Below, in pieces: positions 614-32,955 of a stretch of 32,955 nt of DNA. Source of the DNA: a virus. Both the position numbers and the translations under genes were made by a program. The notes under the pieces were generated by a model that did no database searches, was not told the DNA's origin, and saw only the letters and a program-made list of their open reading frames with translations. The stretch covers positions 1 through 32,955 of IMG/VR virus record IMGVR_UViG_3300032516_000101. One strand, 5' to 3'. Position 1 is the first letter of the stretch, and the number at the start of each line of letters is the position of its first letter.

Positions 614-1370
614 AACGGTTATTTCTGGAATATATAGAGTCAGAAACACAATAGATGGAAAAATGTATATTGGTTCTTCTGTTGATGTGACACGAAGATT
701 GTGGGAGCACAAAAATAGACTTGTTGGCAACAAAAATGAGAATCCACATTTACAAAATGCTTGGAATAAGTATGGGGCGGACAATTTTGAATTTGAACTA
801 TGCGATGAGATTGCTACTTCAATAAATAAAGTAACGAGAGATTACAAGAAATTACTTAAAGATAATTTATTGTTTTTTGAACAATTGTGGTTGGACAATT
901 ATTGGGATTGGGGATGTTTATACAACATATTGCCGATAGCGGGAAGCGCACTGGGCAGTGAACATTCAGAAGAAACTAAGAAGAAAATAAAACGCATAAT
1001 GAATTCAGAATCAGTAAGACGGCGCAATAGTGAAACACATAAAAACAAATTACACTCGGAAGAACACAAAGAAAGAATAAGACAGGCAGGTCTTGGTCGG
1101 CATCTTTCCGATCAACACAAGATCAACATAGGTATATCTGCCAAAGGAAGAACTTCGTGGAATAAGGGTAAAGAAGCTACCGAACACATGAAAAATATGG
1201 TAAGGGGAGAGAACAACGCTTCGGCAAAGCTAACAAAGAATAAAGTATTGGAAATACGAGCAAAACACATTACTGGTCAATACACTCATGCCCGACTAGG
1301 TGTTGAATATAATGTTAGTCGTAGAACAATTGGCAGGATTATCAATAACGAAAAGTGGAGATCGGTATAA
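597..1370 (+). CDS. GIY-YIG homing endonuclease with NUMOD repeats and C-terminal HTH
   Basis: A protein of about 257 residues. The GIY-YIG nuclease domain is at the N-terminus (G11-I12-Y13, Y24-I25-G26, then RRLWEHK with the conserved Arg). The middle carries NUMOD3-like modules (SEETKKKI, SEEHKERIRQAG, WNKGKE). The last 50 residues look like a helix-turn-helix DNA-binding module (ARLGVEYNVSRRTIGRI). Such proteins cut DNA at a long target and spread as homing genes. ATG 597 is preferred over an in-frame GTG at 582. The gene overlaps its neighbours on both sides: the methyltransferase ends at 613, and its own TAA shares one base with the polymerase ATG. This shows clean insertion between, or displacement of, genes. 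No intron is visible. Confidence 0.85.
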   Translation: MVTRYKTVISGIYRVRNTIDGKMYIGSSVDVTRRLWEHKNRLVGNKNENPHLQNAWNKYGADNFEFELCDEIATSINKVTRDYKKLLKDNLLFFEQLWLDNYWDWGCLYNILPIAGSALGSEHSEETKKKIKRIMNSESVRRRNSETHKNKLHSEEHKERIRQAGLGRHLSDQHKINIGISAKGRTSWNKGKEATEHMKNMVRGENNASAKLTKNKVLEIRAKHITGQYTHARLGVEYNVSRRTIGRIINNEKWRSV

Positions 1371-4300
1371 TGACATTTGTTCATTTACACAATCATACCC
1401 ATTACTCAATAGGGGATGGATGTTCAAGTGCCAAGGATCTTGTCACGAAAGCAAAAGAGCTTGGCCATAAAGCAATCGCTTGTTCGGATCATGGAAACGG
1501 GAATGCCCTATACGAAGCGTGGAAAGAAGGCAAGGCAATAGATATCAAAGTCCTTTGTGGCGTTGAGGTTTATCTTGGTGCTCAGTTAAAAATAGAGGAT
1601 GAAGAAGGAAAAATAAAAAGGGACACTTCATACCATAGTGTTTTACTTTGTAAAGATTATCAGGGATATCAACAACTTTGTAAATTGCTCTATAAGGCCA
1701 ATAAGGAAACCTATTATTACAAACCCGTCATATTGTTTGATGATTTTTTTGCCATTGAGCCGGGCCATTTGACAATTTCTACCGCCTGTATTGGTGGGAT
1801 AATCAATAAATATTTTTTAGAGGATCAAGATGAAGAAGCCTATAAAATGGCAATTCGCCTTAAGGAATTTTTCAAAGATGATCTTTATTTTGAATTGATC
1901 CTCAATGAGCTTAATGAACAGAAAGTATGTAATGAGAAACTTCTTAAACTTGGAAAAGATATTGGGCATGAGAAATTTATTCTTACCAATGACACACACT
2001 ATCCAAATAAAGAAGATATTAAAACGCAGGACGCACTCAAACTTATTATCCGGAAGAATACGATAAAAGAAATCGAGGAACATCCGGAAAAAAGTCCATT
2101 TGCGTCAGTAAGAAAATCATTTATTTGTTCCCGGCAAGACTTCCATGACTTTAATAAGGAATTTGGCTTTAATTACGATGATTCTCAAATAGATTCGTGG
2201 CTCGATCTTACAAATGAAGTTGCCGATAAATGTAATTTCCAATTTGACACGACCACAAAGAAATTTCCAAAAGTAAAAGTTCCCGAAAAATATAAAGATG
2301 TCAATGATTATTTTAAAAAGCTTTGCGTAAAGGGACTTACGGCGAAAATAGAATCCGGAGAAATTCCCAAAGAAAAAACAAAGGAATATGCTGATCGGCT
2401 TAAATACGAAATGAAGGTTATTTGCGCCGCTGATTATGCGGATTATTTCATAATTTATTGGGACATTTTTGAATGGGTAAGGGAACAAGAAATTTGGGTA
2501 GGACCAGCAAGAGGATCGGCCGGTGGTTGTCTAGTTTCATTTGTTCTTGGGATAACAAAAATTGATCCAATAAGACATGACCTTATGTTCGAGAGATTTT
2601 TAGCAAGCTCACAAGTAAAAATTGAGGAGGATGTTATCGAAGAACTGGGTGATGGCGAAAATGGTGATCAAATTGTTGGACCAATAAAATCAAACATTAT
2701 TAAGAAAGAAATTAAACGGGAAGAAATTAAGAATGGTAAAAAGAGGATTGTTACCAAAATTATTTTGGATCGTGTTTCAGCGCCCGATATTGATAGTGAT
2801 ATAGATTCTGACTCCAAGTCCTTTGTGGAAGATTATCTTCGTATTAAATATGGTGAGGATTCGGTAATTCATGTGCCGACTTACTCCGAATTCCATGTGA
2901 AATCGACCCTTCGAGATCTGTGTCGAGTTTATAATCGTGACGACGATGGCTTGTTTAATAAAATTTCGAAGGAATTGGAAGAAGATGTTCCGGTTCAATT
3001 TAGTGACAACATTGAGGAATATTTGAAGAGTTTGTGCGACAATAATGAAGATATGAAACAATTTGTAGACAAGAATAAAGATATATTGCCACTTGCGAAT
3101 TCACTTTATCGAAAAATTAGACATCTTGGGAAACATGCGGCTGGCGTTGTTATTTTTGACGGTCCGATTTATGATTACATTCCCGTTCAAAGGACCGGTG
3201 GTGAGGTAATTGCCTCATTTAGCGAGGGAACCACAAAGAAATTCTTGAGCGATCTGAAAATATTGAAACTCGACATTCTCGGACTTGATACCGTTTCAAT
3301 CATTAAAGATACGGTAAACATGATTAAAGAAAAGAAGAATGTTGATTTAACGGAGAAAATTTATCATCTTGATTTAGAGGATGAAAACATTTATCGGACA
3401 GTAAGAGATTATGAGAACGCCGGAATATTCCAAATGGATGGTTTCGGAATTAATAAACTTGCGCGGGATGTAAATCCACAATCTTTCGAGGATGTGGTGG
3501 CAATTTCGTGTCTTTATCGGCCAGCAGCCCTTCAAGGAGGTCTGGCTTATCAATATGCGGAATCAAAAAACGATCCAACCAAGAAAGTCGATGTTCCAAA
3601 GATATTTCAAAAGTATGTGACGAAGACCTATGGCGTAATTCTTTATCAAGAGCAAACAATGTTGTGTGTCGCGGAAGTCCTTGGAATTTCTCTAGGAGAA
3701 TCCGATAAATGGAGGAAACCATTTGAATACGGATTCAGGAATGAGTGGGTTGACGGCCTCGACCTACAGAATCTTGATCGAGAAAGAAAAGATCGACCGA
3801 AACTTGACGGATTTTTAAAGGCATATGACGAAAGAATAAAAATTACACATCCAGAACTGACGGAACAAGAAAGACAAGAAACATTACTTTACTTGCTTAA
3901 CTTTACGGGATATTCATTTAACAGAGCGCATGGTCTTTCTTATGGTTACATTACGATTATGTGTCTTTGGCTAAAATGTTACTACCCGTCTGAATTTTTT
4001 ACGAGCCTAATTAGTAGGTGTGATGATGATGATAAGCGCAAAAAATACATTATGGCAGGGAAAAAGAAAGGGCTAAATATTCTTCCCTTTAGCGTATTCA
4101 AATCGAAGTTTGCTTGTCAGCCAGAAGGCGACAATGGATTGAGACTTGGATTATCAATGTGTAAAGGTTTTGGCACTAAAGCATGGGAAGAGTTAGAACC
4201 AAGACAAAAATTAATAACTGATTTAAAAAGTTTTTACAGTCAATCATGGTCAAAGATGAATCGAAAATGTATTAAAGTATTAGCTAGCGTTGGGGCATTT

Positions 4301-4837
4301 GACGAATTTGGTTATACGCGGAAATCCATTTTAGAATTTGTCGAACAATATGCGGACAATACAAAAGCTGCGAAAAAGAATAAACGATCAAACGAAGAAA
4401 TTTGGGCCATTTTGGAGAAAGCGGATGGTAAGAATAAAGAATTAAATAAGAAAGAATTTCTGAAATTGGACAAGGAATTCCTTGGATTTTCCACACAACA
4501 GATATTGGATGATTCATTTGCGCAGATTCAGGAAGTTTTTAAACGAAATAAAATCGGAACATTTGCGGACATGTCCACAAAAAGATCTGGGACAGTTGGC
4601 GGTTTTGTTGAAAGTATTGTCGATAAGAAAACAAAAACGGGAAAATTGTATTATGAAATCGTTTTATCAGATGGTTCACAAAGTAACAGGGTAAGGATTT
4701 GGCCATGGAATCTTGATAATAGTTTCGATGGCTCACAACTTAGCGAAAATTCTGTTATTGTATTAGATTTATTATATGAAGACAAATTCGGATTTTCAAC
4801 AATGAGAAATGGAATGTTTAAAATCATCCAAAATTAA
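1370..4837 (+). CDS. dnaE: DNA polymerase III alpha subunit (DnaE-type replicase)
   Basis: A protein of 1155 residues, near the usual DnaE length. In order: a PHP domain (HLHNH near residue 5, CSDHG, CGVEVY, TNDTHY); the polymerase palm (GPARGSAGG at 378-386, FERFL at 407-411, PDIDSD at 472-477 carrying catalytic Asp residues); fingers (GKHAAGVVIF, YGVILYQEQ, FTGYSFNRAHG); a helix-hairpin-helix region (KVLASVGAFDEFGYTRKS); and a C-terminal OB fold from about 1060 to 1155. It synthesises phage DNA. ATG 1370 follows GTGGAG and overlaps the preceding stop. An insert of about 53 residues, charged and unrelated to E. coli DnaE, separates FERFL from RVSAPDIDSD. The OB fold is duplicated as a separate gene at 6027. 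Confidence 0.95.
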   Translation: MTFVHLHNHTHYSIGDGCSSAKDLVTKAKELGHKAIACSDHGNGNALYEAWKEGKAIDIKVLCGVEVYLGAQLKIEDEEGKIKRDTSYHSVLLCKDYQGYQQLCKLLYKANKETYYYKPVILFDDFFAIEPGHLTISTACIGGIINKYFLEDQDEEAYKMAIRLKEFFKDDLYFELILNELNEQKVCNEKLLKLGKDIGHEKFILTNDTHYPNKEDIKTQDALKLIIRKNTIKEIEEHPEKSPFASVRKSFICSRQDFHDFNKEFGFNYDDSQIDSWLDLTNEVADKCNFQFDTTTKKFPKVKVPEKYKDVNDYFKKLCVKGLTAKIESGEIPKEKTKEYADRLKYEMKVICAADYADYFIIYWDIFEWVREQEIWVGPARGSAGGCLVSFVLGITKIDPIRHDLMFERFLASSQVKIEEDVIEELGDGENGDQIVGPIKSNIIKKEIKREEIKNGKKRIVTKIILDRVSAPDIDSDIDSDSKSFVEDYLRIKYGEDSVIHVPTYSEFHVKSTLRDLCRVYNRDDDGLFNKISKELEEDVPVQFSDNIEEYLKSLCDNNEDMKQFVDKNKDILPLANSLYRKIRHLGKHAAGVVIFDGPIYDYIPVQRTGGEVIASFSEGTTKKFLSDLKILKLDILGLDTVSIIKDTVNMIKEKKNVDLTEKIYHLDLEDENIYRTVRDYENAGIFQMDGFGINKLARDVNPQSFEDVVAISCLYRPAALQGGLAYQYAESKNDPTKKVDVPKIFQKYVTKTYGVILYQEQTMLCVAEVLGISLGESDKWRKPFEYGFRNEWVDGLDLQNLDRERKDRPKLDGFLKAYDERIKITHPELTEQERQETLLYLLNFTGYSFNRAHGLSYGYITIMCLWLKCYYPSEFFTSLISRCDDDDKRKKYIMAGKKKGLNILPFSVFKSKFACQPEGDNGLRLGLSMCKGFGTKAWEELEPRQKLITDLKSFYSQSWSKMNRKCIKVLASVGAFDEFGYTRKSILEFVEQYADNTKAAKKNKRSNEEIWAILEKADGKNKELNKKEFLKLDKEFLGFSTQQILDDSFAQIQEVFKRNKIGTFADMSTKRSGTVGGFVESIVDKKTKTGKLYYEIVLSDGSQSNRVRIWPWNLDNSFDGSQLSENSVIVLDLLYEDKFGFSTMRNGMFKIIQN

Positions 4838-8018: not shown

Positions 8019-8345
8019 ATGAATTTAAAAGAATATCAAGATTGGTCACAAAGTGTCTGTATTTATCCAAAAGATAAAGCCATTGAATATGTTGCCCTTG
8101 GTTTGGCTTCCGAATGTGGTGAACTTTGTGGAAAAATTAAGAAGATGTTAAGAGATGACAATTGTATAATAACCAACAAAAAGAAAGAAGAACTCATTGG
8201 GGAAGCAGGCGACTGTCTATTTTATCTTAGTAGAATTTGTCAAGAAACCGGAATATCATTACAACAAGCAATGGAGGACAACATAAAGAAATTAGAAGAT
8301 CGTAAAGAGCGCGGTGTTCTTGGTGGTAGTGGAGACAATCGATGA
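8019..8345 (+). CDS. mazG: MazG-like nucleotide pyrophosphohydrolase (candidate MazZ)
   Basis: A protein of 108 residues with the all-helical MazG fold signature: E32-C-G-E35 and E62-A-G-D65, the ExxE...ExxD acidic residues that bind Mg2+. Family members hydrolyse NTPs or dNTPs to NMP and pyrophosphate. In phages that use 2-aminoadenine a MazG-like enzyme (MazZ) turns dGTP into dGMP, the substrate of PurZ; a PurZ-like gene lies 4.5 kb downstream at 12843, so that role is possible but not proven by sequence. The start follows GGGG. Four bases overlap the next deaminase gene. Confidence 0.88.
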   Translation: MNLKEYQDWSQSVCIYPKDKAIEYVALGLASECGELCGKIKKMLRDDNCIITNKKKEELIGEAGDCLFYLSRICQETGISLQQAMEDNIKKLEDRKERGVLGGSGDNR

Positions 8346-12544: not shown

Positions 12545-12841
12545 ATGTTGGAATTTGAAAAGCCCCGTATTAATGTTTATTCAGCCTGCGATAAAGAGGG
12601 ACATCCGATAGGCGGAAAATGTATATTATGTAATTGTTCTCCGACCGATATGCGGATTGAAGGTGAAGTTAACGGATTTCTACATACAAATTGTTGGTAC
12701 TTCGTGAGACAATATTCGCAAAATTTACAATACACATTTGGCGAGGCACTAGAACAAATAAGAAATAGATTATTTAGAGAAGAACAAAAGAAGGAAGAAA
12801 CAACAACGAAGGGGGCAACGGAAATGGTTGGTGGATGTTAA
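12545..12841 (+). CDS. Small protein with treble-clef-like zinc site
   Basis: A protein of 98 residues. C26-x2-C29 and H47-x2-C50 (GKCILC and HTNC) make a plausible CCHC zinc site of treble-clef type, followed by a helix and a charged Glu/Lys-rich tail. No family is assigned. The stop TAA overlaps the likely ribosome-site region of the PurZ-like gene; the ATG of the next gene is two bases after the stop. Confidence 0.65.
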   Translation: MLEFEKPRINVYSACDKEGHPIGGKCILCNCSPTDMRIEGEVNGFLHTNCWYFVRQYSQNLQYTFGEALEQIRNRLFREEQKKEETTTKGATEMVGGC

Positions 12842-12842
12842 T

Positions 12843-14084
12843 ATGGCGTTTGATACCGATTTCTTTTTTACGCCGGGAAAACTCTCAATAGTGGCTGATG
12901 GAACATATGGATCATCGGGGAAGGGGTCGCTTGCGTCATTTTTAACAGAACATGCTGATTATCAATTTGCTTGTAACACTTTTTCCGCCCAAGCAGGACA
13001 CTGGGTGAGACTCGACCCGACAGAGCCAAATAAGCCGGGACGAACTTATTTTTACCAATCACTTAATAGTTGTGCCTATCAAAAGGACAAATATGAGAAA
13101 TTGTATATTGGTCCAGACGCAGCTATCGAATTTCCAGCACTTATGCGCGAAATAGAGGAGAATAACATCCCAGTCAAAAAATTGGGAATCCATCCTCTCT
13201 GCACAATCTTGCAGGACAAGGACAGCGCCTACGAGAGAGGAGAAGTAGATTATGAAGGGAATCCGCTGTCAAATCGTGGTGATGGCACAATGAAATTCGG
13301 GTCAACAGCGCACGGAGTTGCTCCTTGTAGAACCAGAAAAATGCTGCGAAGGCAAGATACCATTCTGGCCAAAGATTTTGTTGCTCTTGAAGAAATGATT
13401 TGTGATGTTGAGCGGGAAATAATGGATCGACTCGACAAGGGTCAAAAGGGTCTTCTTGAAATTGCTCAAGGATTTCCGCTTAGCTTAAATTACAAGTTTT
13501 ATCCAGCCACAACATCAAGAAATGTTACCGTATCGGCAGCCCTCGACGGAATGATGCTACCACCAATTTATGCTGGAAATGTAATGTTGAACTTCAGAAC
13601 TTTTCCAATTCGCATAGCCAATGATAAATATATTGGTGACGATGGTAAATTTTTAACCTGGGCCGAAATTCAACAATACGACAAAGAGGATAAAAAATAT
13701 CAAATTTACAAAGGAACTTCTGGCGGTTGGTATGATGATCAAGAAGAAACGACTTGGGAAGAAATAACAAAAAGCAGCGGCGCAGTAGAAAAAATCCAAG
13801 AATTGACGAGCGTAACTAAGATGCCCCGTCGCGTAGCAACCTGGAGCAAACAATGTTTGATTGATGCCGTTAAATATAATAGAACACACGGAAGGATGTT
13901 TATAAGTATCAATTTTTTAAACTATGTCCAAAATGACATTCTTGGTTATCGAGGTGACAGTATCAAAGAATTCCCAAAATGTATTGAGTGGATTAATAAA
14001 AATTTGTGTGATCTGGATAAATTGAGTGCTGAACTTAAAATATTAGGCACTGGACCTAAAACAGACGATAAGATTCTTTTTTAA
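12843..14084 (+). CDS. purZ: Adenylosuccinate synthetase homologue, PurZ-like (Asp to Ser in the P-loop)
   Basis: A protein of 413 residues, slightly shorter than PurA (about 430). It aligns along its whole length: YGSSGKGS (22-29) for PurA WGDEGKGK, QAGHW for NAGHT (general acid His kept), GSTAHGVAPCRTRKMLRR for GTTGRGIGPAYEDKVARR, AQGFPLSLNYKFYPATTSRN for [20 protein letters not shown], and a C-terminal GTGPKTDD for STGPDRTE. The catalytic base Asp13 of PurA is Ser24 here. That change is a mark of PurZ, which condenses dGMP with aspartate on the way to 2-aminoadenine (Z) nucleotides; host PurB finishes the reaction. The start ATG 12843 has GGTGGA upstream; in-frame TTG 12828 is an alternative. 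MazG at 8019 could supply dGMP. No DatZ-like gene is certain in this window. Confidence 0.85.
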   Translation: MAFDTDFFFTPGKLSIVADGTYGSSGKGSLASFLTEHADYQFACNTFSAQAGHWVRLDPTEPNKPGRTYFYQSLNSCAYQKDKYEKLYIGPDAAIEFPALMREIEENNIPVKKLGIHPLCTILQDKDSAYERGEVDYEGNPLSNRGDGTMKFGSTAHGVAPCRTRKMLRRQDTILAKDFVALEEMICDVEREIMDRLDKGQKGLLEIAQGFPLSLNYKFYPATTSRNVTVSAALDGMMLPPIYAGNVMLNFRTFPIRIANDKYIGDDGKFLTWAEIQQYDKEDKKYQIYKGTSGGWYDDQEETTWEEITKSSGAVEKIQELTSVTKMPRRVATWSKQCLIDAVKYNRTHGRMFISINFLNYVQNDILGYRGDSIKEFPKCIEWINKNLCDLDKLSAELKILGTGPKTDDKILF

Positions 14085-18875: not shown

Positions 18876-19244
18876 TTAACCTTCCCTTTGCAGGATTTCC
18901 TCGGTGGTCATCGGTGTTTCAGGTCGGAAAGAACAGATTGCGTTTCTCAGTTGATCTGCCCAATCCGGTGCGCATGTCGCCAGGAATTCCTCGTCGATCA
19001 CCTTCGTTCCATCACCTGTCTCCAGAATGAATCGATTTCCTTGTGACCATCCCGCCGATTGCTTTTCGAGGATCAGGCCGTCAACAATTTTCCGATTCTT
19101 AACACACGCGGCGAATGCGTCGATGGCTTCGCGTGGATTTCGGTCCCCGATGCCCACCATTACTGCGTAACAGCGAATAGCCGTAGACCTCGGGAGTGAA
19201 TTTTGGAGCGCAAGGCAAGTGAGAATTTCGTGATAATTCGCCAT
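18876..19244 (-). CDS. Unknown protein in GC-richer minus-strand cassette
   Basis: A protein of 122 residues with no family recognised. The N-terminal half is helical (HEILTCLALQNSLPRSTAIRCYAVMV) and the second part mixed (GNRFILETGDGTKVIDEEFLATC). The start is preceded by AGGGGAAG. It lies four bases before the next cassette gene and ten bases after the 31-codon peptide gene, so the unit is an operon. Codon use with many GCG, GCC and CGG codons sets it apart from neighbouring phage genes. Confidence 0.68.
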   Translation of the reverse strand: MANYHEILTCLALQNSLPRSTAIRCYAVMVGIGDRNPREAIDAFAACVKNRKIVDGLILEKQSAGWSQGNRFILETGDGTKVIDEEFLATCAPDWADQLRNAICSFRPETPMTTEEILQREG

Positions 19245-22257: not shown

Positions 22258-22698
22258 ATGTCTAGCAATCAATACAACATTGCTCGTCCTTTGTCCATTT
22301 CAGACGAAGGTATAGCTTTCGAGTCTGATCCTGATGTTCCGGCGGTTGTTAAGCAAAATTTTAAAAACTTATTATTAACCAAAAAACAGGAACGCTTCTT
22401 CAGGCGATCTTATGGATGTGATCTTCTCAACTTATTGTTTGAACCAAAAACTGATGCTCTTAAAAGATCAATTGCCGAAGAAATTGTCAAAGCAACAAAT
22501 ATTTGGTTGAAATTTATTAAGATAGACAAAATTTATGTTATTTATAGTGAAGATCAAATTCCGAGTGATTTGCCGGAAACGGTTCAAGAACCAAACGAAA
22601 CAGAAGTTCTCGTAATCATAAAATATTCATTTACTGCCGGGGTGGATAAGATATTGGATACCCTTTCGCTAACTGTGACTACATACGGAGAACAATGA
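22258..22698 (+). CDS. Baseplate wedge protein, GPW/gp25 family
   Basis: A protein of 146 residues with the gp25 signature: VKQNFKNLLLTKKQERFFRRSYGCDLLNLLFEP, with conserved Asn-Leu-Leu, Arg and Gly positions, followed by the helix IAEEIVKATNIW and C-terminal strands (VLVIIKYSF, DTLSLTVT). In T4 gp25 joins the baseplate wedge and starts sheath assembly, and contractile injection systems all carry a homologue. This gene is the strongest evidence that the phage has a contractile tail. AAGGAA precedes the ATG, and the end overlaps the next gene by four bases. Confidence 0.88.
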   Translation: MSSNQYNIARPLSISDEGIAFESDPDVPAVVKQNFKNLLLTKKQERFFRRSYGCDLLNLLFEPKTDALKRSIAEEIVKATNIWLKFIKIDKIYVIYSEDQIPSDLPETVQEPNETEVLVIIKYSFTAGVDKILDTLSLTVTTYGEQ

Positions 22699-24476
22699 TG
22701 GTAAGTGGTAATAAACAGATATCATATTTGGGACAAGATTTCGCTTCATTTAATGATGGGTTCTTAAACTTTATGCGCTCGTATTATCCTCAGTCATATT
22801 CCGACTTCAGTGCTGGTTCAAGTGGCATGATGCTTACCGATTTATTAGCTGCGTCGGGGGATATGTTATCTTTCTATTTAAGTCGTGTGTTTAATGAGTT
22901 GGATCCTGATCGTGCTGTTCAAAAAGAATCCGTTTATCGTATGGCGAGAATTCTTGGGTATAAACCACCGCTTAAGGCAGCATCCCTTGTGGATCAAACT
23001 TTTTATGTTAATGTCCCGGCAATATACACAACCGGCATTCCTCTTCCGGATTATCGATATGCTTTTCTCCTAAAAAGAGGATCAAGAATTCTCGCAAACA
23101 ATGGGACGAAATTTGAAACTTTGTATGACCTTGATTTCTCTGCGGCAACTGGTTCTGATTCTTATCGACCGTCACTTGTAAACACGGCTACGGGAATGGT
23201 TGAATATTTCGCATTACAGAGATCAGTTCTTGCCTTATCGGCGGAAACGAAGAAAAAGACCTTTAATATCAATGATTTCGTAAGATATAGAAAATTGACC
23301 GTTGATGATGCCGATTGTATCGATATTTTTGACACAATTGACACGAGCGGGAATCGATGGTATCAAGTTGACCATTTACCACAAGATACCGTTTTTGAAG
23401 CTTCTGTGAATACAAATTATGATAGTTCTCTTGTTCCATATGTTCTTAAACTTAAAAGAGTTCCGCGAAGATTCGTGACTGAGTTTGATTATAATACTGG
23501 TTATATCTCGCTTAACTTTGGTTCCGGCAAAGAAGATACAAATGATGACACAATTGTCCCAAATACCTCGGAAATGTCAATTCCACTTTATGGAAAACCT
23601 TATTTCACTGGATTTTCAATCGACCCGCAACGACTAATTAATTCAAAGACTCTCGGGCTCGCCCCATACAATACTGTTCTCGATGTCTTTTATCGTGCCG
23701 GTGGCGGGGCGTCAAGCGTCGTTCCATCAAATACAATTAAAAAAGTTGATAATGCTCTAATAGAATTCAGGTATTCTGGTCTTAATGATGCCATAAAGTC
23801 AACAGTTATCAATTCGTTACAAACAAACAATGATCAACCATCTCAGGGCGGGAGAGATGAACAAACACTATTTGAGATAAAACAATACGCCAAAGCAAAT
23901 TTCGCGGCCCAAGATAGATGTGTAACGGCGGATGATTACATTGCCCGAATTTTCTCAATGCCCAGTATTATGGGTTCAATTTGTAAGGCGCAAATAAAGA
24001 AGAATTGTAGATCGTCAAACATTATTGATATGAGTGTTCTTGCCTACGATGAAAATAAAAACTATGCTGAACCAACAGATACTCTTAAACAAAATATGAA
24101 AGTTTATTTAAAGAAATATGCGATGTTAACTGATACGGTTTATTTATCAACATCAAACGTTATCAATTTTACAATGTCATTTAAGGTTGTGGCGCAACCA
24201 AACGCCAATAGAAATTCAGTATTGGCCCTGTGTTTAAATTTCATTACTGGATACTTTGATAGAAGTGTTAGAGGGATCGGAGAGCCGATCAAGAAATCTG
24301 AAGTAGTAAAAGGTCTTCAAGGTCTTGATGGTGTTTATTCAGTTGGGTCGATAACTTATTCGTTTACGGATTCTTCAATAATAGACTCAGAGGATTCTGG
24401 CTTGATTTCGTGTCCCGACGGATCGATATTCCAATTGGCTGACCCGCTGCGAAATATATCCGGCGTCATACTTTAG
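22695..24476 (+). CDS. Baseplate wedge protein, T4 gp6 / baseplate J-like
   Basis: A protein of 593 residues. The N-terminal part (DFASFNDGFLNFMRSYYPQSYSDF followed by MLTDLLAASGDMLSFYLSRVFNE) and the next helix (SVYRMARILGYKPP) are typical of gp6/J-type wedge proteins, which dimerise to form the ring of the baseplate. The middle is beta-rich, and the C-terminal half has the CVTADDYIARIFSMPSI segment that J-like proteins share, followed by alternating helix and strand. It follows gp25 with an ATGATG overlap, the same order as in other contractile-tail clusters. Confidence 0.85.
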   Translation: MMVSGNKQISYLGQDFASFNDGFLNFMRSYYPQSYSDFSAGSSGMMLTDLLAASGDMLSFYLSRVFNELDPDRAVQKESVYRMARILGYKPPLKAASLVDQTFYVNVPAIYTTGIPLPDYRYAFLLKRGSRILANNGTKFETLYDLDFSAATGSDSYRPSLVNTATGMVEYFALQRSVLALSAETKKKTFNINDFVRYRKLTVDDADCIDIFDTIDTSGNRWYQVDHLPQDTVFEASVNTNYDSSLVPYVLKLKRVPRRFVTEFDYNTGYISLNFGSGKEDTNDDTIVPNTSEMSIPLYGKPYFTGFSIDPQRLINSKTLGLAPYNTVLDVFYRAGGGASSVVPSNTIKKVDNALIEFRYSGLNDAIKSTVINSLQTNNDQPSQGGRDEQTLFEIKQYAKANFAAQDRCVTADDYIARIFSMPSIMGSICKAQIKKNCRSSNIIDMSVLAYDENKNYAEPTDTLKQNMKVYLKKYAMLTDTVYLSTSNVINFTMSFKVVAQPNANRNSVLALCLNFITGYFDRSVRGIGEPIKKSEVVKGLQGLDGVYSVGSITYSFTDSSIIDSEDSGLISCPDGSIFQLADPLRNISGVIL

Positions 24477-25850: not shown

Positions 25851-27005
25851 ATGCCTCGACAAGACCCCCGTTTGACAATTATCTTTAAGAACCATGAAAC
25901 AATAATTTACCTTGTCGATGGTGAAATTGTTCGACGGGACTTTAATAGAGAATTTACTAGCGGTGGAAATGTTGGTAGATACCCAAATTTTATGCCAGAA
26001 TCTGATATCTGGGTTGAATCAACACTTAATGATAAAGATAAATTGTTTAATACCGCCCATGAAATTGTTGAGCGGCATCTGATATTGTGGAATAACCTTG
26101 AATACAACAAAGCGCACTTAAAATCATCGAAATTTGAGGCCGCAATTCGAAGAACTAGCACATCAATTGAAGACCCAATAAAACTTGCCGTTGATATAAC
26201 AAATCTTTGTAAAATAAATTGGTGGTTAAGGAACCAACATGGTCATTTGTGGCCGATGTTTATCTGCTGTGAAAGTGGTGGGCGAAAAGTTGATCTTGAA
26301 CAATTTGCAAATAGATGTGTGGGAAAATGTGCGGAATCAAAAATATACTGTCCAATATGTGGTAAGGTGATGCGTCACTTAAAAAATGGCGTGGACCATA
26401 AATTTCCTGACTTTTTCGACACCCACAAAATATCAACGGATATCAAGGATTGGATTTCAGAGGAAATGGTTGAATGGTTCGAGGATAGGACAAAGCGTCA
26501 CATTAATCTTGTCCAAAAATACTGTGAGAAAATAGAGAAATATGATCCGGTTAGGTTTGCCGGATTAATAGAGAGAGGAAAAGAGCACGATTTAAGTAAA
26601 TATGGAGAGATAGAAAAAGACCCTTATATCCTCATTTCATGGAATTATAAAATCAAAAATAGTGGAAAGAAACCCCTCGAAATGCCATTATTTATTAAGA
26701 GAAAACTTAACGAAGCGACTGAGCATCATATCAAAACATCCAAGCACCATCCAGAAGCATGGAGCCCAAGAAAGGCCGCTCTTTTAAATACATCTGACAG
26801 GGATAAAGCACCCGAAAAAATAATTGACGCAACCAGAATGGATATTTTGAGCGTTGGCGAGTTGTCAGCAGATTGGCTTTCAATGGGGGTCGAATTACAT
26901 TCGGATGTAGTAAAATGGGCGAAAGATAACATAAATAAACGCTGGAAATTTACAAAAGAACAAGAAGGACTTATCTGGGAATTGATAAGCGTGGGTATCC
27001 AATGA
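25851..27005 (+). CDS. Fusion of a HExxER domain, zinc knuckle and HD-like (DUF5662-type) domain
   Basis: A protein of 384 residues. Domain 1 (about 10-105) has IIYLVDGEIVRRDF, FTSGGN, FMPESDIWVE, H70-E71-x2-E74-R75 and NKAHLKSSKFEAAIR, a pattern found in hypothetical proteins of phages and archaea and looking like a degenerate metalloprotease helix. Next come four Cys (156, 160, 167, 170) forming a zinc knuckle. Domain 2 (about 210-384) has H217, H246-D247, E291-H292-H293 and H299-H300, the spacing of HD-type metal hydrolases of the DUF5662 kind. Substrate unknown; HD enzymes of phages include dATPases (DatZ), but this is not a clear DatZ. It overlaps the ART gene (ATGA). Confidence 0.65.
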   Translation: MPRQDPRLTIIFKNHETIIYLVDGEIVRRDFNREFTSGGNVGRYPNFMPESDIWVESTLNDKDKLFNTAHEIVERHLILWNNLEYNKAHLKSSKFEAAIRRTSTSIEDPIKLAVDITNLCKINWWLRNQHGHLWPMFICCESGGRKVDLEQFANRCVGKCAESKIYCPICGKVMRHLKNGVDHKFPDFFDTHKISTDIKDWISEEMVEWFEDRTKRHINLVQKYCEKIEKYDPVRFAGLIERGKEHDLSKYGEIEKDPYILISWNYKIKNSGKKPLEMPLFIKRKLNEATEHHIKTSKHHPEAWSPRKAALLNTSDRDKAPEKIIDATRMDILSVGELSADWLSMGVELHSDVVKWAKDNINKRWKFTKEQEGLIWELISVGIQ

Positions 27006-27955
27006 TTTCTTTGAAAAAGTTAATTTTAGAAACAAAATATAATTTGGGAGGTGTGGCAAGTATTGATATAGATCCCGCAGAAAAGCATAACCTTCCATAT
27101 GAGTCAATAAAGATATATCGTGGGGAAGCTTTTGATTGGCTAGATGACTTTTTAAAGAGATTTGGTGGATTTCCACAAAAGGGTGATGAAGTTACGGTAA
27201 AAATAGATCGTTTAACTTCCTTTTCGACGGAGCAAGATACAGCAAATATTTTCGCATTTCAATATAATGATCGGGATAATGCCTTTCGTGTCGTTTATTC
27301 TTTGGTCGCCAAAAGTGATGATATTCACGATCTAAATTTTGATAACGAATACCAAAAATATAAATTTAAGGTTGAACACGAGATTCTTTTGAAACCCGGT
27401 AGATATATCGTAAAGATAGAAAAAATTGTTTATCCTTTTTTATCGGATTTGAAAGCTCCGACATGGCTCATTTCGACAGAAGATGCCACAAAAAACATAA
27501 AAAGTAAATTGTGGGCGAGAAAAGAACAAGATAAAGAAGAATACGTTCAGTTCCTGATAGCTAATAAAGCTAATTTGCGGGAACAAAAAAATTATGTTAG
27601 ATATTTCGCTTGGGTCGACCCAAAGGGTAAAATTCATCCATGTCCCACTGGAACTATTCATGATGATTGGGCAATGCGATACTTACAAAATACAGATATT
27701 GAAACTTGGACAACCATAAAAGGTAATGTTGGCGAAAGTGATTATAGACAATTTTCTGAGTATTTACTTAAACTTGGGTGGACTCGTCAGAGTGATTGTT
27801 CTTTTGAAGTCGACAGAATTACAAAAACAATTGTGTGGAATATCCACGATGCTGCTAAGGAAATTGGCTGTAGAACTGTTTTTGTGAGTTCTTTACAATC
27901 CGATTACGATTTTATTGAATTGCCGCTTGATCAATTTGTGGCAGAATATGGTTGA
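27002..27955 (+). CDS. ADP-ribosyltransferase (R-S-E class) with capsid-targeting-like leader
   Basis: A protein of 317 residues. The three R-S-E motifs are in order: Y39-R40-G41, the STS-type L71-T72-S73-F74-S75-T76, and E125-H-E127 followed by ILLKPGRYIV, as in arginine-specific mono-ADP-ribosyltransferases. Such enzymes move ADP-ribose from NAD to host proteins; T4 Alt and ModA/ModB do this to RNA polymerase. The first ten residues (MISLKKLILE) match the T4 capsid-targeting form with an (I/L)xE cleavage site at Glu10, so the enzyme may be packed in the capsid and injected. The C-terminal 140 residues form an additional, unassigned domain. Start ATG 27002 overlaps the previous stop. Confidence 0.78.
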   Translation: MISLKKLILETKYNLGGVASIDIDPAEKHNLPYESIKIYRGEAFDWLDDFLKRFGGFPQKGDEVTVKIDRLTSFSTEQDTANIFAFQYNDRDNAFRVVYSLVAKSDDIHDLNFDNEYQKYKFKVEHEILLKPGRYIVKIEKIVYPFLSDLKAPTWLISTEDATKNIKSKLWARKEQDKEEYVQFLIANKANLREQKNYVRYFAWVDPKGKIHPCPTGTIHDDWAMRYLQNTDIETWTTIKGNVGESDYRQFSEYLLKLGWTRQSDCSFEVDRITKTIVWNIHDAAKEIGCRTVFVSSLQSDYDFIELPLDQFVAEYG

Positions 27956-27958
27956 GTT

Positions 27959-28651
27959 ATGATTTTACAAGAGAAGCGTTCTTATAAATTTGATCTCCAA
28001 CAAAAATTTGATGAGTTCAACCGAGATATTTTTAACGACGAGATAACAATTGCCGTTTCTTTGTCATGGAATTCACAGATGCGGCAGAAACTTGGTGTGA
28101 CTAGGTATCAATTTGATGCTACCGGATTTTGGAATGTGCGAATTGTAATGTCTTCATTTTTTGATATGACAGATGTCACATTTCGGGAGACGCTCATACA
28201 CGAGATGGTTCATTGTCTTATGTTACAAAATGGATTGCCAGTGGATCATGGCAAAGAATTTGTCGATAAAATAAATGAAATCAATAGCAAATTTGGCACA
28301 CATATCACAGTTACGAATGATGAGCCATTAACAACGGAACCAAGATTACAAAAGAAAACGGAAAATATCATAATAAAAAAGAACAAAAGTGGAAAGAAAT
28401 CGATAGCATTACTTGGTAAGAAGATATTAACATTCATCATGAGCATTGATTGGCAGAAATATGCGAGTGACAGAAATTATCCACCAGAAGCAATTGAATC
28501 GATAAAATTGTGTATCACCACTGCCGATCAAACATGGCGATTGGCCCATAGTCTCGCAACCAAAATTCGATTTCAGCAGTTTCCCGACGATCCAAAAATA
28601 ATAGATGAGATAGAAAACAATTCGCAGTTGGTCCAACAACTCTACCCTTAG
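27959..28651 (+). CDS. SprT-like zinc metalloprotease
   Basis: A protein of 230 residues. An N-terminal SprT pattern (LQQKFDEFNRDIFNDEI) leads to the zinc site H81-E82-M-V-H85 and H97-G-K-E-F, the HExxH...HGxxF layout of SprT/Spartan proteases. These cut DNA-bound proteins in eukaryotes; in phages their role is unknown. The C-terminal zinc ribbon of classical SprT is missing; instead a basic linker (about 135-150) and helices follow. The gene follows the ADP-ribosyltransferase by three bases and was probably expressed with it. Confidence 0.82.
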   Translation: MILQEKRSYKFDLQQKFDEFNRDIFNDEITIAVSLSWNSQMRQKLGVTRYQFDATGFWNVRIVMSSFFDMTDVTFRETLIHEMVHCLMLQNGLPVDHGKEFVDKINEINSKFGTHITVTNDEPLTTEPRLQKKTENIIIKKNKSGKKSIALLGKKILTFIMSIDWQKYASDRNYPPEAIESIKLCITTADQTWRLAHSLATKIRFQQFPDDPKIIDEIENNSQLVQQLYP

Positions 28652-28668
28652 TGTGTTAAAATATTTCC

Positions 28669-29454
28669 TTGACAGAAGAAATCAGAAAAATTGGTCCATC
28701 GATACTTGTTACATTTGATGAATGTATGTATCACTATTATCTTACTTATGTAAAGAAATTATCCGTTTTTAAGCAAACAGTTGATACCGCTTTTGGAAAT
28801 GCTGCCCACGATGCGATTCAATATTCTTTTAAGAAAAGATCATTAGTGCAAGCAGAAAAGATATTTTTTGATCATTTCAACAATCATTTGTTTGGACTTG
28901 GTGGTGAAAATAAAATTCAAGAATTGATGAATGATGCTAGGAACATTTTTGATAATATCGATAACATTAACAAAGAGATAAGTCTTCAAGAAATTTCAGA
29001 TGTCGTTTGCGAAGAAGAAATAAAACAAAAAATAAACGATAATTGGTTATTTAGTGGTCGGCTCGATCTTGTTTTCAACTATAAAAAGAAATGGCGGATT
29101 ATTGACATAAAGACGGCAAAAGCGACATGGACATTTGATAAACTTCAAAATATCGCGGTAATTTCTCAGCCGTTACTATACAAATATTTTTGGGCGAAAA
29201 AACACAATGTAACCGATCTCACAAAAATAACCACTCATTATATGTTTCTCAATAAAAAGGCAAAGGGAGAGAGTGCGGTCAAAATAATCAAAATCCCAAG
29301 TGGACCGGAAACAATGAAAAAAGCTCTCGATAACCTCGAAAATACGATGAAACTAATTGAAAAGAAAAAATTCTATAAAAATTATTCGGGATGTAGATTT
29401 TGTGAGTTTAAAATGACTAAGGAATGTCCTCTTGACGCGCTACAACGAAATTAG
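28669..29454 (+). CDS. PD-(D/E)XK nuclease with Cas4/AddB-like Fe-S cysteines
   Basis: A protein of 261 residues. The N-terminus (PSILVTFDECMYHYYLTYVKKL) has the usual start of RecB/Cas4 nucleases with Cys19. Active-site residues are visible as H47 (GNAAHDAI), D133 (SGRLDLVF) and D146-x-K148 (IIDIKTAK). Three further Cys at the end (C242, C245, C253) complete a four-Cys set like the Fe-S cluster of Cas4 and AddB. It should cut or resect DNA ends. The only good start in frame is TTG 28669, as a stop lies 12 bases upstream; no ribosome site is visible, so translation may be coupled to the SprT-like gene. Confidence 0.82.
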   Translation: MTEEIRKIGPSILVTFDECMYHYYLTYVKKLSVFKQTVDTAFGNAAHDAIQYSFKKRSLVQAEKIFFDHFNNHLFGLGGENKIQELMNDARNIFDNIDNINKEISLQEISDVVCEEEIKQKINDNWLFSGRLDLVFNYKKKWRIIDIKTAKATWTFDKLQNIAVISQPLLYKYFWAKKHNVTDLTKITTHYMFLNKKAKGESAVKIIKIPSGPETMKKALDNLENTMKLIEKKKFYKNYSGCRFCEFKMTKECPLDALQRN

Positions 29455-29687
29455 AGATTGTCCACAATAATAGCAGTTTTGTCTTGGAGAGCTTTTTGGA
29501 GGATTTTTTGCCAATCGGCAGAATTATAAAGTTCAATCCGATTTCCAAACCCGACAACTACCTCTAGTCCACAGATGGGACATCCGTATTTATCCCCGTT
29601 GTAAAGAACAGAATTGTTTGAAACGATGAAATCATTCTTCTGGCAACTCATCTCTTTTTGACATTTCACGCAAATTGGTAGCGGCAT
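29451..29687 (-). CDS. Small zinc-ribbon protein
   Basis: A protein of 78 residues: CVKC (6-9) and CPIC (36-39) make a four-Cys zinc ribbon, followed by a strand and a C-terminal helix (SADWQKILQKALQDK). GAGAGG lies about seven bases upstream, and the ATG shares a base with the TAA of the previous gene. It is the last gene of a four-gene - strand unit. Function unknown. Confidence 0.68.
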   Translation of the reverse strand: MPLPICVKCQKEMSCQKNDFIVSNNSVLYNGDKYGCPICGLEVVVGFGNRIELYNSADWQKILQKALQDKTAIIVDNL

Positions 29688-30073
29688 TAATAATCCTCTC
29701 TGTCGTTATCATCCCCGAAGTAATCGCGTTCTCGTTGGGTTTCTGCTCGTGCTTCCATGGCATCTTCGTATGCCGCCTCATCTTGGCCCTCGGCATCTTC
29801 GATTGCTTTGTCCCAAAATTGTTCACAATCAACTTTATCAGTAATGTCTTCGCCGGTGTCGTCCCGAGTCACTGAGATAATATCGAAATCACCCGAATCT
29901 CCTGGGTCGCAATCATCGGGATCCATGCGAATTGTTGGCTTTGTCGGCGGCGATACATGAGCCTTGACAGTTACTTCTACATCGGCTTCCGTTTCATTGC
30001 CTTCATCGTCAGAAAGATTAACGGTTGCCGAAATTTCAACACTGGTTTGTCCACGATGTTGGCGTAGTGGCAT
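29687..30073 (-). CDS. Strongly acidic protein, unknown function
   Basis: A protein of 128 residues from the ATG at 30073, which follows an AGGAGAG site; the frame reaches 30133 but the extra 20 residues overlap the upstream gene. The first half is beta-rich (SVEISATVNLSDDEGNETEADVEVTVKAHV), the rest is very acidic, with DPDDCDPGDSGDFD and a Glu/Asp/Arg-rich helical tail. Acidic phage proteins often mimic DNA or bind basic host proteins, but that is only a possibility here. Confidence 0.62.
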   Translation of the reverse strand: MPLRQHRGQTSVEISATVNLSDDEGNETEADVEVTVKAHVSPPTKPTIRMDPDDCDPGDSGDFDIISVTRDDTGEDITDKVDCEQFWDKAIEDAEGQDEAAYEDAMEARAETQRERDYFGDDNDREDY

Positions 30074-30077
30074 TTCT

Positions 30078-30611
30078 TTATTTCTCTCCTTTCTTTTGCT
30101 TACATGCCGATAATCTTTTCTGCGCAAATTCAAGTTCCTTTTTTAGATCACCAACCTTTCGACCCCAGTAATGGACTGACCAAGCCATGTCTCGTCTTTT
30201 ACTCTCGGTATTTACGAGAAGCCGTCGTTCTTCATCTTTTTCTTTTTCGGCATTTAGTTCTTCACATCGTTTCTGACATTCTTCTTTTGTTTTGAATAAT
30301 GAGTCCTTTACATTGACATTATCTCCATAATTGTTAGTGTATCGGAAGTCATCAAATGACAAATCCGCTGTTCGACAAATAAACTCTTGTGGTTCAAAAT
30401 GGTAATAGTTTCTTTTGATCGTCCCTGTCGGCGGCTCATATCCGAGGGAACAACAAGCACAATTTATCGAAACCTTTTCTCCATTCCCCTGAATGAGTGT
30501 GAGAGCTTTATCGCCATTACATTCAGGACATGTAATCCATTCTTCGTGATGTCCACGACCGACCCACCAGACCTGTTCACCGATGTCAAAAGGAATTTGA
30601 ATGGAACCCAT
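30078..30611 (-). CDS. DnaJ-type zinc-finger protein with C-terminal coiled coil
   Basis: A protein of 177 residues from ATG at 30611; the frame extends to 30695 but that would overlap the upstream gene by 83 bases. Two CxxC pairs (C28-C31 as CPECNG and C51-C54) resemble a DnaJ-type zinc finger, placed after an SH3-like start (GEQVWWVGRG). The C-terminal third is a charged coiled coil (KTKEECQKRCEELNAEKEK and VGDLKKELEFAQKRL). It probably binds protein or nucleic acid. Five bases separate it from the next gene. Confidence 0.65.
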   Translation of the reverse strand: MGSIQIPFDIGEQVWWVGRGHHEEWITCPECNGDKALTLIQGNGEKVSINCACCSLGYEPPTGTIKRNYYHFEPQEFICRTADLSFDDFRYTNNYGDNVNVKDSLFKTKEECQKRCEELNAEKEKDEERRLLVNTESKRRDMAWSVHYWGRKVGDLKKELEFAQKRLSACKQKKGEK

Positions 30612-30612
30612 T

Positions 30613-30963
30613 TTACACCCAATTCTTGTTTGGCTCATCACCAAGCAAATTGTCGAGAACCAGTTTGCACCAGTCCTTTGCAGCAATCCTACCACAATCA
30701 GGAATGCTTTTGTGATTTGTTTTCAGATCACCCTTCAATGTGGCGCGGAGCTTCTTAAGTTTGCCCGCATCATTTATGATCTTCAACACGGAACGATTGT
30801 ATTCGCGGGCATTGTCAGTATTCGGGAAGCAATCGGGAAGTGCGGCAACTGCTACCCGTGGATCGTCAGGACCCATCATCACAAAGCCAGCAACCCATCC
30901 TGGCTTGTTAATGGACGATGCGAAATCCCTCAACCATTCTTGCTGCATTTCGGTCAACATCAT
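30613..30963 (-). CDS. Unknown protein, first gene of the second minus-strand cassette
   Basis: A protein of 116 residues with no family recognised: mixed fold with WLRDFASSINKPGWVAGFVMMGPDD and a basic helical stretch (AGKLKKLRATLKGDLKTN). ATG 30963 lies only six bases after a TATTCT -10 candidate, so the message may be leaderless; a second ATG follows immediately. Codon composition is closer to the GC-richer cassette at 18527-19349 than to the tail genes. Confidence 0.62.
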   Translation of the reverse strand: MMLTEMQQEWLRDFASSINKPGWVAGFVMMGPDDPRVAVAALPDCFPNTDNAREYNRSVLKIINDAGKLKKLRATLKGDLKTNHKSIPDCGRIAAKDWCKLVLDNLLGDEPNKNWV

Positions 30964-30969
30964 GGTTAT

Positions 30970-30999
30970 AGAATATCATATTTAGGGTATTTTTGTCAA
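30970..30999 (-). promoter_or_regulatory. Sigma-70-like promoter for the 29451-30963 cassette
   Basis: On the - strand TTGACA (complement of 30994-30999) is followed by TATTCT (complement of 30970-30975) with an 18-base spacer. It faces away from the promoter at 31018, giving a divergent promoter region. The first ATG lies six bases after the -10 element. Confidence 0.5.
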
Positions 31000-31017
31000 G
31001 TATATATGGATGGGTAA

Positions 31018-31046
31018 TTGACAGACGGGCCGTCAAGCTGTATAAT
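31018..31046 (+). promoter_or_regulatory. Perfect consensus sigma-70 promoter, TTGACA-17-TATAAT
   Basis: TTGACA (31018-31023), 17 bases, TATAAT (31041-31046): both hexamers and the spacing match the bacterial housekeeping consensus exactly. The start of transcription is expected near 31053, only about three bases before ATG 31056, with no ribosome site between. The -10 also forms part of an ATAATTAA octamer (31042-31049). Confidence 0.8.
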
Positions 31047-31055
31047 TAAAACAAG

Positions 31056-32222
31056 ATGATTAAGTTTATGGATCTATTAAAAGAAGATATTTCCGATCAA
31101 TATCCTCTCTACATTAGCGAACGAAACAAAAAGTGGATTGATCTGCTTCGTAATGCTGTTGAAAAGAAATTTATTTGGAACGTCGATTTTAAAGAAGCGA
31201 ATTTTGCCCTTAGTAGAAATTTTGATGATATTGGACGATGGGTTTCAAATGGTAAGGGTGGTTCTACTGATGACAATTTCACCGTTGCTACAGCAAAATA
31301 TGCCGGGGTAGGTGCGGATCAGGTTAGACATACACAATACAGTGTCTCGCAAGGAACATTTCAGAATTTTCAATCGATAAATAAATTGATTCGAATTTTT
31401 GAAAAAGCCGTTGTTGTGGATGATGGAACCAGCAAGGTTATTCAGAAATATCTTGAACTTTACAAATCGTGGAAAACCATTAAGGACATGCTCGACGCCG
31501 TGAAGTCATTCATAACCAAGGGACGGAGGATTGATCCGACAAAACCCTCTAAGCCGATATATCAGCCACCAACACAATCAACCAAAGTTCTTGGCGAAAT
31601 CAAGGTGTTGCTTGAGAATTTGATTGAAAAACATAAAGAAGAATTGAAGCAGGGCTATGTTGATATGGTTACCGGAATGGCCGACAGATTCATGAAGGAA
31701 CGAACTCCTGCCGCAGCTAGCCCAGGTAAATTTTTCAAATTTAATTCTTATATTGTTAGTCTTATTGATTCATTATTTGAATTCGATGAAAAGCGCGACC
31801 CATGGGAATACGAGTGGTATAAAGGTGGGCGAATAGTTAAGATTAGGTATCGAAGCGATGCGAATGAGAAAATTGAGAAATTTGCAGTGCGACAAGCTAA
31901 CGCTGCTGCCGAGGATTTCGTTGCTAGTAATATGAGGAAACTCACCTCCGTTATTGGTGAAAAAGTTAAGGGCGGGACCGAATTGGTAAATAAAACCGTA
32001 GATGGGTCATTTGGCGTTAGTTTCAGTGGTCGTATGAGTTTTAAATTTTCGGATAGCACCGGATTTATTACCAGGAACGACATAACAATGAACGTGTCTC
32101 CTCGTGGCTTGGTTTTCAATCAATTCCCAATTACTTTTCATGATGTAACTTTCAAGGATGGAACATTTAGGAAATTCGTGCCTGAAAAGGCGATGAACGA
32201 AATTTGGGCAAAGGAACAATGA
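31056..32222 (+). CDS. Large protein with capsid-targeting-like leader, candidate injected protein
   Basis: A protein of 388 residues of unknown family. It begins MIKFMDLLKE, the same ten-residue form with (L/I)xE at Glu10 as the ADP-ribosyltransferase at 27002 and the next gene. A helical region (about 105-235, including FEKAVVVDDGTSKVIQKYLEL and LENLIEKHKEELKQGYVDM) is followed by a C-terminal beta domain (about 300-388). There is no obvious catalytic motif. It is the first gene after a consensus promoter and overlaps the following gene by four bases. Confidence 0.68.
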   Translation: MIKFMDLLKEDISDQYPLYISERNKKWIDLLRNAVEKKFIWNVDFKEANFALSRNFDDIGRWVSNGKGGSTDDNFTVATAKYAGVGADQVRHTQYSVSQGTFQNFQSINKLIRIFEKAVVVDDGTSKVIQKYLELYKSWKTIKDMLDAVKSFITKGRRIDPTKPSKPIYQPPTQSTKVLGEIKVLLENLIEKHKEELKQGYVDMVTGMADRFMKERTPAAASPGKFFKFNSYIVSLIDSLFEFDEKRDPWEYEWYKGGRIVKIRYRSDANEKIEKFAVRQANAAAEDFVASNMRKLTSVIGEKVKGGTELVNKTVDGSFGVSFSGRMSFKFSDSTGFITRNDITMNVSPRGLVFNQFPITFHDVTFKDGTFRKFVPEKAMNEIWAKEQ

Positions 32223-32955
32223 TTAAATTTTCTCAGCTACTTACTGAAATTGGTGAACAACTGGCAAAAGAACTTTCTGATACTGGTGTTTCTTTGCTTT
32301 CTAAAGATGAATGGGATAAAGATGGTGGTTATTGGATCTCTACGGGTGGTCAGCACCGTTTATATACTCTTCGGCACGATTGGAACGAATCCTATCAATT
32401 TGGTGAAATTGGTGCTAGTGGACAGAGGCAAACTGGAACAACAAGAAAATCATATTGGGTTATTAATATTGCTAAGTCATGGGCGGAAACATTAAAGAAA
32501 CTTCCTGCTCTTCTTAAAAAATATGAAATAAAGAAAATTTACATTCCAGATTACGATGCCGATCTTGATCCAAATGCCACAGCAAGAGATATTGTTTTTG
32601 ATGAGAATGGTCCAATGATTGTCGGCAAGAAGCACGAGGGGAAAACGGTTGGTTGGGTAAAGGAAAATGACCCATCATATCTGGTTTATCTTGCGACACA
32701 TATTTCATCTGGGAGTTATGAAACAAAGAAATTTATTGAGTTCCTTAAAGTTTATATGGCCGAAGACATTAAAAAGCAAGAAGAATCATTGACCGGTGAT
32801 GCGGCAATTCCTTTTGGGAAATATAAAGGGCAAAAATTGTCGGATATTGCGAAGGTGAATGTCGGTTACATTAAATGGTTGGCAAACTCGGATAGTGATG
32901 ATCGAGGATATACTCCGCATGACGATCAAGGGAAATTGTTACAACAGGCTGCGAG
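32219..32955 (+). CDS. Protein with capsid-targeting-like leader and GKYKG/DUF3820-like C-terminal motif (runs off the window)
   Basis: The frame is open from ATG 32219 to the last base, giving at least 245 residues. It starts MIKFSQLLTE, the third copy of the (L/I)xE leader. Residues about 35-130 look like a small globular domain (GGYWISTGGQHRLYTLRHDW). Later, IPFGKYKGQKLSDIAKVNVG followed by YIKWLAN matches the GKYKGxxL...YLxWL motif of ExoX C-terminal/DUF3820 domains, thought to bind nucleic acid. The ATG overlaps the preceding TGA. Because it lacks a stop in the window its full length is unknown. Confidence 0.7.
   Translation, partial: MIKFSQLLTEIGEQLAKELSDTGVSLLSKDEWDKDGGYWISTGGQHRLYTLRHDWNESYQFGEIGASGQRQTGTTRKSYWVINIAKSWAETLKKLPALLKKYEIKKIYIPDYDADLDPNATARDIVFDENGPMIVGKKHEGKTVGWVKENDPSYLVYLATHISSGSYETKKFIEFLKVYMAEDIKKQEESLTGDAAIPFGKYKGQKLSDIAKVNVGYIKWLANSDSDDRGYTPHDDQGKLLQQAA

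Follow-up and report, generated by a model that had tools for sequence, protein, structure and literature searches.

Three proteins encoded on a DNA fragment of about 33 kb from an uncultured phage (IMG/VR record IMGVR_UViG_3300032516_000101, positions 1-32,955; the whole 32,955-base stretch is hereafter the window) very likely begin with capsid-targeting propeptides of the kind carried by the T4 internal protein IPIII, which would dock the proteins, be cleaved after Glu10 and leave bodies for injection. The capsid-targeting reading of this ten-residue leader is well supported, because its conserved positions match those of the T4 capsid-targeting sequence (CTS), because it is associated with Peptidase_S77 proteases, and because proteins with the same leader are present in virions. 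Since the leader is shared by unrelated bodies, the three proteins form a set of cargo proteins, probably carried into the host cell.

The open reading frames (ORFs) at 27002, 31056 and 32219, all on the plus strand, begin MISLKKLILE (27002-27031), MIKFMDLLKE (31056-31085) and MIKFSQLLTE (32219-32248), respectively. As the preliminary description had claimed, all three have hydrophobic residues at 7 and 8, here Leu or Ile (L7-I8, L7-L8 and L7-L8), and an (I/L)-x-Glu ending on residue 10, and the ORF translations confirm this. Position 4, which that description missed, is likewise conserved (L, F and F; Y in T4). Residues 8-10 read ILE, LKE and LTE, the (L/I)-x-E form of a cleavage site, and the predicted cuts fall between E10 and T11, D11 and I11. 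The N-termini are credible because the starts at 27002 and 32219 share ATGA with the preceding stops (ending at 27005 and 32222, the latter being the stop of the gene at 31056) and because the ATG at 31056 lies 9 nt past a perfect promoter. Codon usage differs among the three leaders, and pairwise BLASTP gave no significant similarity between the bodies, which bears out the earlier statement that they are unrelated.

Mutagenesis of the T4 IPIII CTS assigned targeting mainly to residues 4 and 7 and processing to residues 8 and 10; the gp21 protease cleaves after (L/I)-x-E, and a leader with Asp10 blocks processing while still allowing targeting (PMC9026906). The conserved positions in the window, namely 4, 7, 8 and Glu10, coincide with these mutagenised positions. 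Across 42 pooled leaders, position 4 is Leu or Phe in 33, position 8 is Leu or Ile in 37, and residue 11 is mostly Ser or Ala. Applied to T4 itself, the refined motif retrieves gp24, Alt, IPII, IPIII and gp61.1, and a permissive scan adds one non-gene ORF. The 54-residue gp61.1 (gene 61.1, 18966-19130) starts MKTFKEFIKE, the full capsid-targeting pattern, and may be an unrecognised internal protein. The CTS, and its use to find internal proteins of T-even phages, were already known (PMC12373910; PMC9026906).

Permutation of residues 2-21 within each gene gave an expectation of 0.13 ± 0.36 leader genes in the window, against the three observed (P = 0.0005), and a stricter motif gave three against 0.10. 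The permutation motif required hydrophobic residues at 4, 7 and 8 plus Glu10, with the permutation and register controls using a looser form. In cyanophages the looser motif also caught RecA (MSFLNDVVKE) and an internal start in the sliding clamp; position 7 was therefore narrowed to F/L/I, so the refined counts are partly post hoc. Glu10 is the commonest register, and a Glu9 form, with spacing one residue shorter, is abundant in the 484-kb uncultured phage genome LR756508 and present in IMG/VR. The preliminary placement of Glu at exactly residue 10 thus stands for the three window proteins and fails as the sole register. The IMG/VR Glu9 scan, planned as a negative control, holds real variants and is not a clean control; matches to the Glu10 form there number at least those counted, and the Glu10 and Glu9 totals are not comparable.

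A gp6-like baseplate gene relates the window, at 31-33% identity, to the Microcystis phage Mel-JY01, the Flavobacterium phage immuto and LR756508. Peptidase_S77 scored above its curated cut-off in all three of these, the nearest complete relatives, as it did for T4 in the same search, and each carries the leader on several unrelated proteins. In Mel-JY01 the leaders are MIKLKSLLQE, MIKLKSLLKE and MIKLMSLVTE, on three paralogues, and MGILKQLLKE; in immuto they are MIKLIDLLTE and MISIYNILKE. On a wider scale, 11 S77-positive genomes (ten related or T4-like phages plus T4; 3311 genes) contain 46 leader genes versus 8.1 expected by permutation of the refined motif. In contrast, three large S77-negative genomes (phage G, SPO1 and phiKZ; 1247 genes) contain two versus 3.95 expected, phiKZ carrying its own very diverged protease (PMC9026906) that PF03420 does not match. 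Within this sample, the leader excess is confined to S77-encoding genomes.

LR756508 has 15 Glu10 and 18 Glu9 genes, which overlap to give 30 in all, about 28 of them credible. Sixteen are divergent paralogues of a single family: every member keeps the second leucine of the leader and the last Glu, and the register is 9 in some and 10 in others. This family has LYRG, REPRDT and SxFA motifs and corresponds to PHROG 11975 (function unknown). It is possibly related in kind to ADP-ribosyltransferases (ARTs), a reading that lacks profile support: its profile returned only chance coiled-coil matches in the PDB, and we do not call it an ART. The same profile had no real relation to the window protein at 27002 except the leader. 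The LR756508 leader genes lie in islands at 177-183, 212-224, 255-265, 297-300 and 329-338 kb.

The relatives also show other recurrent N-termini. In LR756508 (L145-L149, L160; for example at 155070, 161027 and 194332), about 13 small proteins that otherwise differ begin with M(K/R)(L/I)xxxKLRKI(I/V)KEE(L/I)xxVLxE, with similar starts in immuto (MKKSQLRQIIKEAL), and this may be another targeting class. In immuto, two more N-termini are repeated: FDLKKFLVENKLTxNSxLL, shared by at least four proteins, and MKKQILSEQFxRMQxLAGIITE, shared by two (L009: 1803, 25061; L010: 3806, 11675, 17631, 18632).

Published mass spectrometry (MS) of purified virions of the cyanophage S-CREM2, a distant relative, lists 52 proteins of about 221 encoded (Table 3, PMC10665884), and all five S-CREM2 proteins with the leader at their annotated start occur in that table. 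These are gp6, an S-adenosylmethionine (SAM) hydrolase (MKDFDSFLEE); gp13 (MKDLHSFLTE); gp14, an APH-like kinase with a GTG start (xKRFDAFLTE); gp136 (MQTFSMFFSE); and gp154, a cytidylyltransferase (MKNFSSFLTE). When any of the first eight starts was allowed, five of six leader proteins were in the virion (Fisher P = 0.0038). A Cas9-like nuclease, the fourth non-structural, non-lysis enzyme of the S-CREM2 virion, has LRFASFMAE close to its N-terminus. Furthermore, the NMNAT of cyanophage S-SCSM1 (MKSFLQFLKE) and the cytidylyltransferase of cyanophage S-SZBM1 (MRFRQFIIE, the Glu9 form) are virion proteins. Pooling the three phages, five of seven proteins with a strict Glu10 leader at an ATG start are in virions (P = 0.0044). 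The leader is thus not spread over many non-virion genes in S-CREM2, and one leader protein went undetected in each of S-SZBM1 and S-SCSM1. Overall, the earlier proposal that the shared start is a packaging signal is supported by the T4 CTS positions, the S77-only enrichment and the S-CREM2 virion data.

The first cargo gene (27002-27955, plus strand) encodes 317 residues and a putative R-S-ExE ADP-ribosyltransferase, recognised by motif: YRG at residues 39-41 is followed by SFST and then EHEILLKPG. The R-S-ExE regular expression matches this protein alone among 4606 ORFs of 14 sequences and nothing in shuffles, although it was built around the protein itself and does not retrieve T4 Alt. Searches of Pfam, PHROG, NCBIfam and the PDB gave no match, and thus no ART family, and a single-sequence AlphaFold model (mean pLDDT 35) was uninformative on an ART fold. 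The preliminary assignment to the ADP-ribosyltransferases thus holds at motif level, and because the pattern has no profile support the identity is probable at best. The second gene (31056-32222, plus strand; 388 residues) has no known domain and is predicted to be largely helical; its single-sequence model was of low confidence (pLDDT 36). The third (32219-32953, plus strand) encodes at least 245 residues, is open at the contig end and bears a short ExoX-like C-terminal motif (PF20600, residues 199-223, E = 1.4e-12).

Elsewhere, among the IMG/VR matches listed, MIKF..(L/F)(L/F).E opens dozens of unrelated proteins. A Pfam census of 47 distinct leader proteins from these matches found DUF6267 (seven), HAD phosphatases and zeta-toxin-like kinases, as well as an acetyltransferase, a cytidylyltransferase, an ART-PolyVal match and a Tad6 Thoeris inhibitor; none of the IMG/VR leader proteins listed matched a PADLOC defence model. 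In Mel-JY01, the gene at 52405, whose product opens with the leader MQFKQYILGE, encodes a SAM lyase (PF23780, E = 4e-10), an activity class shared with the S-CREM2 virion protein gp6. This cargo from outside the window fits roles in host takeover or counter-defence.

In the proposed mechanism, the leader, an amphipathic segment with hydrophobic residues at 4, 7 and 8, would dock each protein on the prohead scaffolding core of the infected cell; a gp21-family prohead protease would cut after Glu10 at (I/L)-x-E, freeing the body within the head; and the freed bodies, comprising the probable R-S-ExE ART, the helical protein and the protein with the ExoX-like motif, would travel with the DNA into the next host. 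Cleavage after Glu10 and injection are expected for the window proteins by analogy with T4, and we infer an S77 protease in this phage and an effector function for the cargo.

Several observations weigh against this reading. The 33-kb fragment yielded no gene for a protease, scaffold or capsid protein, so the machinery is read from relatives that are about 31-33% identical in one baseplate protein. Taken singly, KVP40, RaK2, Cr30, S-SZBM1 and S-SCSM1 show no significant enrichment (weak in the first three), and the small leader proteins MKTFKQFMSE of S-SCSM1 and MKSFKSFLSE of S-SZBM1 were undetected in virions. The S-CREM2 authors allow for carry-over in their virion MS (PMC10665884), which in any case gives no position of a protein within the particle. 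Neither tblastn against phage records nor a pattern search of IMG/VR found homologues of the three bodies. Finally, a perfect host-type promoter precedes 31056, suggesting that the 31056-32219 pair is also expressed early, and a purely late packaged protein needs no such promoter.

The alternative that survives best retains docking and gives up the cut: the leader would be a helix that takes proteins to the prohead core, or elsewhere in the virion, and is uncleaved or not cleaved at Glu10. The Asp10 variant of T4 is competent for targeting but blocked in processing (PMC9026906), and the coexistence of Glu9 and Glu10 forms in one paralogous family indicates that the exact position is loose. Nevertheless, the final Glu is retained, being invariant together with L7 in one alignment (A2), residue 8 conforms to the gp21 (L/I)-x-E site in the 37 of 42 leaders noted above, and the Ser/Ala bias at residue 11 also speaks for a cut; we consider an uncleaved helix unlikely. 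Less probable still is that the leader addresses another partner during infection, for instance a membrane site or a phage polymerase, with no connection to the virion. Much recognisable cargo does resemble host-takeover enzymes, and 31056 is preceded by a promoter of the host early type, but the leader tracks S77, the leader-bearing T4 proteins are head proteins, and MS finds all five leader proteins in S-CREM2 virions, from which about three quarters of the phage's proteins are missing. Coincidence or translation-initiation bias, in which AT-rich codons after the ATG read M-I-K and matches are picked by eye, is scarcely credible: MIK starts do arise easily at 37% GC and the motif was selected after the sequences had been viewed, yet the permutation retains each protein's own N-terminal composition, bias leaves L7-L8-x-E10 unaccounted for, AT-rich, S77-negative phage G (30% GC) has one leader gene versus 2.7 expected and thus no excess, many unrelated proteins of the relatives share the pattern, and the comparison of S77-positive with S77-negative genomes already disfavours it.

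The promoter is a sigma-70 consensus, TTGACA-N17-TATAAT, at 31018-31046 on the plus strand, the single exact match in the window against 0.05 expected. At 9 nt from the ATG, it would give an almost leaderless mRNA. A perfect palindrome, GACGGGCCGTC (31024-31034), lies in the spacer and could be an operator. The genes at 31056 and 32219 are in one operon; early expression of the pair fits takeover roles and is not something that packaging demands. Baseplate wedge genes, gp25-like (PF04965) and gp6/Baseplate_J-like, occupy 22258-24476 on the plus strand. Separately, an adenylosuccinate-synthetase-like gene at 12828-14084, whose best model is PurZ (NF038379, E = 1e-43, below cut-off), lies near a MazG-domain gene (8019-8345) and a DnaE-type DNA polymerase III alpha gene (1355-4837), a combination that may point to a pathway for 2-aminoadenine (Z) DNA in a DnaE-encoding phage.

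Injected phage proteins are mostly unknown, and their identification usually requires proteomics. A short leader that is recognisable in the sequence, follows the S77 protease and agreed with virion MS in an independent phage provides a cheap predictor of injected takeover and counter-defence proteins in uncultured phages of the T4 superfamily, and it offers an explanation for the SAM hydrolase, kinase and NMNAT in cyanophage virions. We hold at even chances the broader proposal that the leader serves throughout the T4 superfamily, well beyond Straboviridae, as a general address tag by which any tagged protein is loaded, cut and injected, some phages having very large arsenals. If true, this would account for the puzzling virion enzymes of cyanophages, and injected effectors could be listed from sequence alone. 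Within the literature searched, it is new that the leader occurs in this distant lineage, that it extends across many cargo families and that it matches the enzymes of cyanophage virions.

The closest parallel is with T4 IPII and IPIII (MKTYQEFIAE), whose leader is likewise ten residues long, hydrophobic at 4, 7 and 8, and ends in (I/L)-x-E at Glu10; in both systems it opens unrelated accessory proteins, and an S77 protease is present in all complete relatives examined. Unlike the T4 leaders, those of the window, known from sequence alone, read I2-K/S3-F/L4 and L7-L8, belong to a lineage far from Straboviridae and have common Glu9 variants in a relative. T4 Alt (MELITELFDE), which is packaged, processed by gp21 and injected (PMC9026906), resembles the 27002 protein as an ART, probable in the latter, with an N-terminal (I/L)-x-E leader. 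However, the Alt propeptide is seven residues according to the same review (PMC9026906), unlike the ten-residue window leaders, and the 27002 body has 317 versus 682 residues, no detectable sequence similarity to Alt and an ART assignment by motif only. The virion-associated enzymes of S-CREM2, S-SCSM1 and S-SZBM1, like the window proteins, carry the leader on non-structural proteins, in phages where S77 is present, but their cargo differs (SAM hydrolase, APH-like kinase and NMNAT/cytidylyltransferase); the papers on these phages note the enzymes without connecting them to a leader.
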